From contig JACRMI010000110.1 of assembly GCA_016215025.1 (NCBI GenBank), positions 1 through 64,000 of the forward strand: a stretch of 64,000 bases of DNA, read 5' to 3'. Positions within the stretch are counted from its first letter, which is position 1; each line of letters begins with the position of its first letter. Source of the DNA: Chloroflexota bacterium. GTDB taxonomy: Bacteria > Chloroflexota > Anaerolineae > UBA4142. The position numbers and the translations under genes were made by a program. Of this stretch, positions 1 to 46,590 are shown in pieces. The notes beneath the pieces were generated by a model that saw only the letters and a program-made list of their open reading frames with translations, had not been told where the DNA came from and made no database searches.

Positions 1-54
1 CTCTGGCCGATAGTAACGCTTGGGAACTTCGGAATTGTCTTTGGCTCGTCTCAT
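1..54 (-). CDS. partial CDS truncated by window edge (MRRAKDNSEVPKRYYRPE...)
   Basis: 18 open codons from ATG (minus, 54) to window edge; weak upstream purine-rich site. Confidence 0.3.
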   Translation of the reverse strand, partial: MRRAKDNSEVPKRYYRPE

Positions 55-149
55 CCACACACCTTTGCGTCGTAGGGTTCTTGAGAACCCATTATACCGC
101 ATCAGAGGCGTGTAGGTGGAATTTTGCGGTTACTGTTTTTTATTGCCAC

Positions 150-4362: not shown

Positions 4363-5124
4363 CTAGTGTAGTATTTGCGACAGAAACAATTTCGTTCTAT
4401 CGTGCTGGGGATTTTCAAAAATCTGGTTGGGCGTCCCTTCCTCGATCAACTCGCCGCCATCGAAGAAAATCATACGATTCGCTACACCGCGCGCAAAGCC
4501 CATCTCGTGCGTGACACAAATCATGGTCATGCCGGATCTCGCCAACTGCGTCATTACGTCCAGCACTTCTTTAATCATCTCCGGATCCAACGCGCTCGTC
4601 GGCTCGTCGAACAGCATGATCTTGGGTTGCATCGCTAACGCGCGCGCGATGGCAACGCGCTGCTGTTGTCCACCGGATAACTGCGCGGGAAATTTATGCG
4701 CCTGCTCCGGAATGCCCACGCGCTTGAGCAAATCCATCGCAATCTGTTCCGCCTTGTCCTGCGACCAGCGGCGCACCCACACCGGCGCAAGCGTAATATT
4801 TTGCATGACTGTGAGATGTGGAAAAAGATTGAACGATTGAAACACCATGCCGATTTCTTGACGGATCGCCGCGATGTTCCGAATATCATTCGTCATCTCG
4901 ATTCCATCGACGATGATCGTGCCACGCTGATGTTCTTCCAATCGATTGATCGTCCGGATGAACGTCGATTTACCGGAACCCGAAGGACCAAAGATGACGA
5001 CGACTTCGCCAGATTTCACAGTTATATTGATACCTTTAAGCACGTGCAGTCGATCATACCACTTGTGCACATCCTTAGCGACGATCATCTCGCGCGTACC
5101 ACTGACCATTCCAATGTTGCTCAT
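4363..5124 (-). CDS. aapP: polar amino-acid ABC transporter ATP-binding protein
   Basis: Walker [10 protein letters not shown], signature LSGGQQQR, Walker [13 protein letters not shown]. Confidence 0.92.
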
Positions 5125-5195: not shown

Positions 5196-6401
5196 TTATC
5201 TCTTTCCCACGCCCAGCGCTCTTTCCAATTGATAACTGGCGTACGACATCACGTAACTGAACACAAAGAACACGGCGGCGATGAACAGGTACACTTCGGT
5301 TTGCAAACCCAGGAACTCGGGTTGCGCCAACACGCTGCGACCGACGCCGAGCAATTCCAACAGCGCGACAATGGTCGCGAGTGTTGTGTCCTTGAACAAA
5401 CTGATGAACAAACCGACCGTCGCCGGAATAACTAAACGCAACGCTTGCGGTAAAACGATAAACAACGTCGTCAAGGGACTGTTCAACCCCAGCGCGTGCG
5501 CCGCTTCGATTTGCCCGGAAGGAATCGCCTGCAGACCGCCGCGCACATTCTCCGCCATGTACGCTGCCGTAAATAACGTGAACGCCGCCATCGCGCGGAC
5601 CACATTATCGACGCGAAATTCGCCCGGCAAAAAGAGCGGCAGCATGATTTGCGTCATGTACAGCACGGTGACGAGCGGAACGCCGCGCACGATTTCGATG
5701 TACGCTATGCTAAACCATTTCACCGCCGGTAAGGCACTCCGCCGACCCAGCGCGAGCAAAACGCCCAGTGGAAACGAAAGTACGATGCTGACAATCGCCA
5801 GCATAAATGTCAACAATAAACCGCCCCAGCGACCAGTGCTTACATCCGGCAACAGACTATTACCTTCGATGCCGCCTAACAAGATGATGGTCGCCACAAA
5901 TGACAACAACCAGAGAATCAAAAGATAGCGACCCAAGCCCTTGCGGGTGCGTCCTAAAAAGTAACCGGCAATCACCAGCGCCAAATCGCCGACGAGCCAA
6001 ATGCGTCCCTCGCCGTCAAAGGTCTGAATCGGCAATACGGCAAACGTCGCGAGTGCCGCCGCGAGCCAAATGCCAAACGTGCGAATCGTTCCGCCCCATA
6101 CGCCCGCCGACACGCCAAACAATCCAGCAACCATCGCAACGATGATATGGACGCGGCGAGCTTGATCGGGCGGATAGGGACCGATCATGAACAATCGCCA
6201 GTTTGCCGTGACGACGGACCAGTGGGCGGATGTAAACATCCAGACGATGAGCTGGCTCAAGACGACATAGAGAATCCATGCGGCGATGATCGTCAACAAC
6301 GAATTGTACCACGTACTAAATAGATTTCGCTTTAGCCAACCCAGCACACCCACAGATGTGCGCGGCGGTTCGATGCTATCGACAGTTACATTTGCAGCCA
6401 T
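5196..6401 (-). CDS. aapM: amino-acid ABC transporter permease (AapM-like)
   Basis: 401 aa; [15 protein letters not shown]...[28 protein letters not shown] permease motif. Confidence 0.88.
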
Positions 6402-6457: not shown

Positions 6458-7657
6458 CTACTTTTCTATGATTTGCACGCTGCGATTGTAGATGTTCATT
6501 AACAGTGACGTGAACAAGCTCATGGCCAGATACGTGAGCATCACCAGCATAATGACTGGCACAGGAGCGCCCGTCTGATTCATAATCGTCGCACCGACAT
6601 TGAACAAATCGGGATAGCCAATCGCAATGGCCAGACTCGAATTCTTCGCTAGGTTAAGATACTGACTCGTCAGCGGCGGAACGATGACGCGCATCGCTTG
6701 CGGAAAAGTGATGAGGCGCAAGATTTGCATTTCGCCCAAGCCCAACGCGTGTGCCGCTTCGATTTGGCCCTTGCGCACCGCTTGAATTCCGCCACGCACG
6801 ACTTCGGCGATGAAAGCGGCGGTGTAGATCACGAGACCGGTCAAGAGCGCGCTAAACTCTGGCGAGAGCGCTAACCCGCCACTGAAATTAAATCGACCCG
6901 GCACCGGAAAATCGAGCGTAAGCGGTGCAGTGCTGGAAATCATCCAGCCCAAAATTCCAGCCAACCCAAAGACAATCAACGCTGCGAAATAGGGCGACAC
7001 CGCGCGCCGAGTTTTAATCGTCAGAACGCGTATCAGGATAATGCCAGCGATTAATCCAATAAAGAGAAAGAGCAGCCATGAGGGAAAAGTTTCGGAGGGA
7101 ATTGGCCGCGGCACAAACACGCCGCGTTGATTCGCAAACAAGGCCTCGCCGACGTTGATACTTTCGCGGACCGGAGGCAGCTTTACAAAGACACCAAAAT
7201 AGATAAAGACGAGTTGAACCAATAGCGGCGTATTGCGAATGATTTCAATGTAGACGGCGGCAATTTTGGCTAAGAGCCAGTTGCTCGACAAGCGTGCTAC
7301 GCCGGTGATAATTCCGAGGATCGTCGCTAGAATAATGCCGACGATACTTACCGAGAGCGAATTGAGCACGCCGACCATGAACGCGCGACCGTACGTGTCG
7401 GACGGTTTATAATCGATCAGCGATTCGCCAATTTCAAACCCGGACTCGCGATTGAGAAACTCGAAACCGGCGACGAGACCGCGTTGGCGCATGGCAGTCG
7501 AAAGATTATTGTAGAAAAAACCAGCAGCAAATGCGAGGATAATCACAAAAACAATTTGGCTGATAACCGTGAGGACACGCACATCACGCCAAAACGGAAC
7601 GGCAGTCTGAGGATGTTCCACCATTGGAGCTCCGACTAAAAGTAAACCCTCACCCAA
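6458..7657 (-). CDS. aapQ: amino-acid ABC transporter permease (AapQ-like)
   Basis: 399 aa; IEIIRNTPLLVQLVF...[28 protein letters not shown]. Confidence 0.88.
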   Translation of the reverse strand: MGEGLLLVGAPMVEHPQTAVPFWRDVRVLTVISQIVFVIILAFAAGFFYNNLSTAMRQRGLVAGFEFLNRESGFEIGESLIDYKPSDTYGRAFMVGVLNSLSVSIVGIILATILGIITGVARLSSNWLLAKIAAVYIEIIRNTPLLVQLVFIYFGVFVKLPPVRESINVGEALFANQRGVFVPRPIPSETFPSWLLFLFIGLIAGIILIRVLTIKTRRAVSPYFAALIVFGLAGILGWMISSTAPLTLDFPVPGRFNFSGGLALSPEFSALLTGLVIYTAAFIAEVVRGGIQAVRKGQIEAAHALGLGEMQILRLITFPQAMRVIVPPLTSQYLNLAKNSSLAIAIGYPDLFNVGATIMNQTGAPVPVIMLVMLTYLAMSLFTSLLMNIYNRSVQIIEK

Positions 7658-7763: not shown

Positions 7764-8941
7764 TTAGCGATACGGCGGCGCGTAGAGCAGTCCGCCTTGC
7801 GTCCATTGCTTGTTCAAACCGCGTGGTAACTTGAGCGGCGTTGTGGGTCCTAGGTTACGATCATAGATTTCGCCATAGTTGCCTACGGCTTTGACAACCT
7901 TGACCACCCAATCGGGGTTCAATCCCAAAGCGCCGGCCAAGTCCTTGTCGGACAGCAAACGCTTGATGACCGGATCGGCGCTGTTCACCATTGAATCGAC
8001 GTTCTTGGAAGTGACGCCGGACTCTTCCGCCTGAATGATTCCATACACCGTCCACTTGACGACGTTGAACCATTGATCGTCGCCTAGCGGAACGGCGGGA
8101 CCGAGCGGTTCTTTCGACAAGGTCACGTCCATGATTTCGTAATCATCCGGTTTCGCAAACACGATGCGGCGCGACGCGAGCTGTGACTTGTGTAGGTCGG
8201 ATCGATGTCGGCGAACACGACAGGTTTGAAATCGACACCAGCGGCACGCATTTGATCGGTGAGATTCAGTTCCGTCGTCGTACCACTTTGAACGCAAATC
8301 GTTGCGCCTTTTAAATCTTTGAGGGTCTTGGCTCCAACTTTCTTCGCAATCATGATACCTTGACCATCAAAGAAAGTAGTTGGTGCAAAGAGACCCCATG
8401 CTGTGTCGCGGCTCGATGTCCAGGTAGTGTTGCGAATCAGCAAGTCCACTTCGCCCGTTTGAAGTGCAGGACCACGTTGACCAGTATTCAGTGGACGAAA
8501 TTCGACTTTGGTCGCATCGCCAAGAACGGCCGCTGCGATAGCGCGACAAAAGTCAGCGTCGAACCCAGCGAATTGACCGGTCGTTTTGTCGAGCGCGCTA
8601 AAACCTGGGAGCGCATCGTTCACGCCGCAAATCACTTTGCCGCGATTCTTGACCGTCGCCAAGCGATTACCGGCTGGCTTGGGCGCGCTGCTAGCTACAG
8701 ACGATGAGGCACTGCTCGATACGGGCGGCTTGGTGGCTTCGGGAGCCTTGGTCGGTTCCGGAGCTTTCGTCGGTGCAGCTGATGACGCAACCGACGATGA
8801 TGCCGATGACGAGACCGGCGGTTTAGTGGCTGGGACTGCAGTAGGCGCAGCGGTCGGCGGCAAAGGCGTCGGCGCAGGCACGCACGCCGCGACGAGAGCC
8901 ACGACGAACAGTAACGCAAAAACAAATCCGAGTTTCTTCAT
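7764..8941 (-). pseudogene. aapJ: amino-acid ABC transporter substrate-binding lipoprotein, copy 1, frameshifted by an internal deletion
   Basis: N-terminal part in frame of ORF 8123-8986, C-terminal part in ORF 7764-8297; reading frame changes at about 8190-8210. Confidence 0.85.
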
Positions 8942-8954
8942 GTCCTCTCCCCCT

Positions 8955-9990
8955 TTAACGATACGGCGGCGCGTAGAGCAAGCCACCCTCAGTCCATTGC
9001 TTGTTCAAGCCGCGCGGCAGCTTGAGCGGCGTGCTCAATCCCAGGTTGCGTTCGTAGATTTCGCCATAGTTGCCTACGGCTTTGGTGACCCTGACCACCC
9101 AATCCGGATTGAGACCCAAACCAGCCGCCAAGTCTTTGTCAGACAACAAACGCTTGATGACTGGATCGGCGCTGCTCACCATCGAATCGACATTCTTGGA
9201 TGTGATACCTGATTCTTCGGCTTGGAACGTCGCGAAGATGGTCCACTTGACGACGTTGAACCATTGATCGTCGCCTAGCGGAACGGCGGGACCGAGCGGT
9301 TCTTTCGACAAGGTCACGTCCATGATTTCGTAATCATCCGGTTTCGCAAACACGATGCGGCGCGACGCGAGCTGTGACTTGGGCGAACACGACAGGTTTG
9401 AAATCGACACCAGCGGCACGCATTTGATCGGTGAGATTCAGTTCCGTCGTCGTACCACTTTGAACGCAAATCGTTGCGCCCTTGAGGTCAGCCAATTTTT
9501 TCGCGCCAACTTTTTTTGCGATCATCATGCCTTGACCATCGAAGAACGTAGTAGGCGCGAACAAACCCCATGCTGTGTCGCGGCTGGATGTCCAAGTGGT
9601 ATTGCGGATCAGTACATCGATTTCGCCCGTTTGAAGCGCGGGACCACGTTGACCGGTGTTGAGTGGACGAAATTCGACTTTGGTTGCATCGCCCAGGACT
9701 GCAGCAGCAATCGCGCGACAATAATCGGCGTCAAAACCGGCAAATTGACCGGACGTTTTGTCGAGCGCGCTGAAACCGGGGAGCGCATCGTTGACGCCGC
9801 AAATCACTTTGCCGCGATTCTTGACGAGCGCGAGTCGACCACCGGGGGTTTGAGCGGGTGGAACGGCTGTGGCTTGCGCGGGAGGCGCGTCATACGAGAC
9901 GGCAACCGGTGCGGTCGATGGTCCTGGCACAAATGCCGCCACAGCGACGAGGACAAACATGGCTAATAGCATCAGCCCAAATTTCTTCAT
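8955..9990 (-). pseudogene. aapJ: amino-acid ABC transporter substrate-binding protein, copy 2, frameshifted at the equivalent position
   Basis: N-terminal ORF 9334-9990 and C-terminal ORF 8955-9419; break at about 9381. Confidence 0.85.
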
Positions 9991-29646: not shown

Positions 29647-30111
<465 letters not shown>

Positions 30112-44725: not shown

Positions 44726-46472
<1,747 letters not shown>

Positions 46473-46590
46473 CATGAGTCACTATTCAGTTATCAACAAA
46501 GAATTTAGCATAGGTTAATAGATTTGTCAAAATTTATTTTGCACAGACTTACCACCGCACGTTTTGTGCATAATGCCAATAGTCCCGGTG

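Follow-up and report, generated by a model that had tools for sequence, protein, structure and literature searches.

Matching frameshifts in two tandem AapJ-type binding-protein genes of a Chloroflexota bacterium are very probably assembly artefacts at a likely gene conversion tract

Introduction

Are two neighbouring genes for amino-acid-binding proteins, both out of frame at almost the same codon, really broken in the organism, or were they broken by the assembler? The question arises from a 64-kb stretch of DNA (the window) at the start of contig C15 (77,945 bp), one of the 194 contigs in a Chloroflexota MAG of 7.74 Mb with an estimated contamination of 7.7%. The closest relatives of the MAG are Anaerolineales-type Chloroflexota MAGs. 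The genes belong to an Aap-type amino-acid transporter operon on the minus strand, in which a tandem pair of binding-protein genes is accompanied by two long permeases and an ATPase:

4363-5124, minus strand: AapP-type ATPase (GlnQ-like), intact
5196-6401, minus strand: AapM-type permease, intact
6458-7657, minus strand: AapQ-type permease, intact
7764-8941, minus strand: AapJ-type amino-acid-binding protein gene, copy 1, SBP_bac_3 (PF00497), frame broken at about 8190
8955-9990, minus strand: AapJ-type amino-acid-binding protein gene, copy 2, frame broken at 9381/9382

Results

Copy 1 begins with an ATG at 8941, encodes a lipoprotein-type signal and ends with a stop codon at 7764-7766; copy 2 extends from an ATG at 9990 to a stop codon at 8955-8957. 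The match to the SBP_bac_3 profile and the presence of an ATPase and two long permeases in the operon identify the genes as AapJ-type. The gene order (binding protein, two long permeases, ATPase) is that of the AapJQMP general L-amino-acid ABC transporter, but two binding-protein genes stand in tandem here, whereas the relatives examined have one matching binding protein at the operon. In these relatives the gene at the same place is intact, and the intact protein of one of them (L031) matches the nearest solved structure, 4z9n_A, at 5.9e-103. The lipobox cysteine is present in copy 1 (VAAC, 8850-8941) and replaced by phenylalanine in copy 2 (VAAF, 9900-9990); among the relatives it is absent from L007 and present in L008 and L009. 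Judging from this distribution, the tandem genes may go back to two older types of the protein.

The two copies share two exact blocks, whose coordinates in the original prediction proved correct to the base. They are listed here with the sites at which sequence appears to be missing:

8050-8190: exact 141-bp block in copy 1, equal in length to the k of the assembly (see below)
9241-9381: exact 141-bp block in copy 2, identical to 8050-8190
8210-8308: exact 99-bp block in copy 1; the part of the shared tract on this side comes to 117-119 bp when 8190-8209 is included
9382-9480: exact 99-bp block in copy 2, identical to 8210-8308
8189-8192: site of a probable false join in copy 1, which lacks about 40 nt; ambiguous by 2 bp
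9381-9382: site of a probable false join in copy 2, which lacks about 59 nt; blunt, zero shared bases

The next-longest exact match between the copies is 32 bp. Beyond the shared blocks the genes diverge, as had been predicted (about 80% alike); over the gene core, nucleotide identity is 81% and codon identity 54%. The two blocks abut in copy 2, whereas 19 bases separate them in copy 1. In all six of the closest relatives (L006-L009, L011 and L012), 20 codons separate VVFA (VVFQ in L012) from KSQL. Of these 60 nt, copy 1 retains 20 and lacks 40, while copy 2 retains 1 and lacks 59; neither loss is divisible by three, and both copies are out of frame. A frameshift at the same site in both copies had been predicted, and this holds for the breakpoint on the KSQ side, which is common to both; the other breakpoint is offset by 19 bp, and the lesions are two distinct junctions. 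A real deletion by short homology was considered and rejected, as the bases shared at the join number zero in copy 2 and two in copy 1.

The residues lost include a GRCDA.TSD segment, aligned to GRCDAYTTD in 4z9n. In this family such an aspartate takes part in ligand binding, so a protein that lacks it would hardly work. A search of the MAG with the protein of an intact relative revealed no other copy holding the missing stretch, which is to be expected if the missing middle lies in a contig of about 300 bp that was left unbinned.

Apart from the break, both copies look like genes under strong selection. Outside the shared tract, dN is 0.075 and dS is 1.06 (dN/dS of about 0.07), the frames are open on either side of the break, and no further lesion was found in copy 1 or copy 2. 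This pattern, together with the intact permeases and ATPase, argues against both copies being real pseudogenes, in which a deletion arose, spread by gene conversion and was followed by a small second deletion in copy 2. The identical tract does cover both lesions, and this genome shows another apparent case of conversion between tandem genes (see L167 below). However, the two losses differ in length (40 versus 59 nt) and in their ends, unlike a single deletion copied from one gene to the other, and the differing junctions require the extra event. We regard this history as very improbable.

The shared tract itself is probably due to gene conversion. The copies are identical over 79 codons in a row (100%, against 54% codon identity outside), for which the chance probability is about 5e-22. 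Such a run is unexpected at this divergence and gene conversion is its ordinary cause, so the identity of about 300 bp is probably a real conversion between the copies. A short perfect block within genes about 80% alike is typical of conversion between tandem paralogues; the difference is that the present tract cannot be read whole in the assembly. A second likely conversion tract, again judged from sequence, lies in contig C57 (L167, 9595-11133), where tandem genes for what by eye we take to be trypsin-like proteases are both intact and share an exact 99-bp block. This block is shorter than k and was thus assembled without harm; its presence in an intact pair means that a length of 99 bp is by itself no proof of an artefact.

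Could the identity be spurious, the reads of one copy or strain having been used for both, with true copies that differ throughout? The tract is anomalous against the 80% identity around it, and the estimated contamination of the MAG is 7.7%. But in a k=141 graph the flanks require (k+1)-mers in the reads that link each unique flank to the tract, and bubble merging would not unite sequences only 80% alike. We thus see very little room for this explanation.

The length of the larger block is that of the assembler's word. We compared exact repeats in 2.44 Mb of sequence (the first 20 kb of each of contigs C1-C140, and C15 whole). The longest measured 141 bp, and exactly this length was shared in 26 pairs of contig ends, which points to a de Bruijn graph of the MEGAHIT type with k=141 as the source of the contigs. 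This value of k is used by MEGAHIT and is, as far as is known, impossible for SPAdes; 99 and 119 are also values on the MEGAHIT k series. Contig names containing k141 occur in public records. In both gene copies, the first break lies exactly 141 bp inside the shared tract, that is, one k of this very assembly inside an exact repeat, as expected of an assembler artefact; real pseudogenes would need a coincidence to place both breakpoints there. On the far side, the break is 99 bp from the tract's edge in copy 2 and 117-119 bp from it in copy 1; the matching of these two distances to k values is post hoc. These results strongly support the repeat-related assembly error that was one of the two explanations originally offered; the other, a deletion spread by conversion, is not supported, as a single converted deletion would not yield two deletions with different ends. 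Conversion and assembly error would instead go together, the former having created a repeat that the assembler could not span.

Of the 141-bp repeats in the 2.44 Mb, the 141-mer at 8050/9241 alone is internal to contigs on both sides. Its left neighbours differ between the two occurrences, as do its right neighbours, and it must end a k=141 unitig; the contig was therefore joined after the graph stage. A second trace of such joining is found in contig C45 (L155, 13762-13911), where an 18-N gap lies between exact 66-bp duplicates: the join missed an overlap, and the assembly was thus scaffolded. As this is the one N run in the 2.44 Mb, the scaffolding step is poorly documented. When we modelled the repeat with random filler, the flanking unitigs each bore exactly k bases of it.

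Elsewhere in the sample, same-strand frame switches without a stop or start nearby are rare, with eight in 2.36 Mb. Other candidates for switches inside genes without a nearby stop are at L198 1983, L176 18580, L206 734 and L218 7435. In a predicted coding stretch at C15:76855-76974 (L125), 60 bp, an integral number of codons, are perfectly duplicated in tandem; the duplication may be natural or a further join error. Many contig ends share sequence: 140 of the ends in the sample, such as window positions 1-139, fall into 33 shared-sequence clusters of up to 16 ends each. Many-copy repeats, perhaps insertion sequences, thus limit the assembly.

Further features of the window are a SAM riboswitch (RF00162, 68.1 bits) at 46284-46474 on the minus strand, a tandem repeat with an 8-bp unit (GACTAnnn) and a higher period of 48 bp at 29675-29863, in a stretch called non-coding, and a repeat of about 68 bp, dispersed at 2553, 43413 and 61971, which ends in TTCGCTTCGC.CAGAATGAC or similar.

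Discussion

We consider it very likely that the frameshifts in both copies are assembler artefacts at a converted repeat, and that the genes are functional in the organism. The course of events would be as follows. A recent gene conversion gave two functional tandem AapJ-type genes a common tract, R, of about 299 bp (141 + 59 + 99). As R exceeds the largest k of 141, the graph would have contained it a single time, and each of the three contigs that flank it would bear only about k bases of it, as our model reproduces. In both copies, the left-hand piece stops after 141 bp of R; the right-hand pieces begin 99 bp (copy 2) or 117-119 bp (copy 1) before its end, and we infer that these shorter ends may stem from earlier MEGAHIT rounds. 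Later scaffolding or gap closing, to judge from the sequence at the joins, would then have put the contigs together end to end, and in doing so dropped 59 nt from copy 2 and 40 nt from copy 1. If the middle of R was lost in joining, the frameshifts are absent from the organism. With two lesions within 1.2 kb, each 141 bp into one long repeat, the repeat is the best explanation of both.

That assembly errors give rise to false pseudogenes has been documented (Cooley and Wright 2024, PMC11017572). The present case resembles those described in that the genes look frameshifted owing to the assembler, the relatives are intact and selection is still visible; it differs in its cause, a repeat between tandem paralogues, and in that two genes were struck together. 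Local assembly and scaffolding errors in MAGs, where contigs ending in shared repeat sequence are wrongly joined, have also been described (PMC7111523). The N gap with duplicated flanks in C45 is of the type reported there, whereas the two joins in the binding-protein genes lose sequence rather than duplicate it and leave no N.

The original prediction had held that, if the lesions were real, the transporter would have no intact binding protein here. This inference is not supported, and we find it hardly credible that both genes are truly broken in the population, by a deletion that conversion spread and a later event modified, so that the transporter would lack its own binding protein. Reading the lesions as artefacts takes a false pair of pseudogenes out of the annotation. 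It also suggests a simple rule for short-read assemblies: where a gene breaks exactly one assembler k inside a repeat, the assembler should be suspected. The case also shows that recent conversion between tandem genes can yield matching false frameshifts in both.
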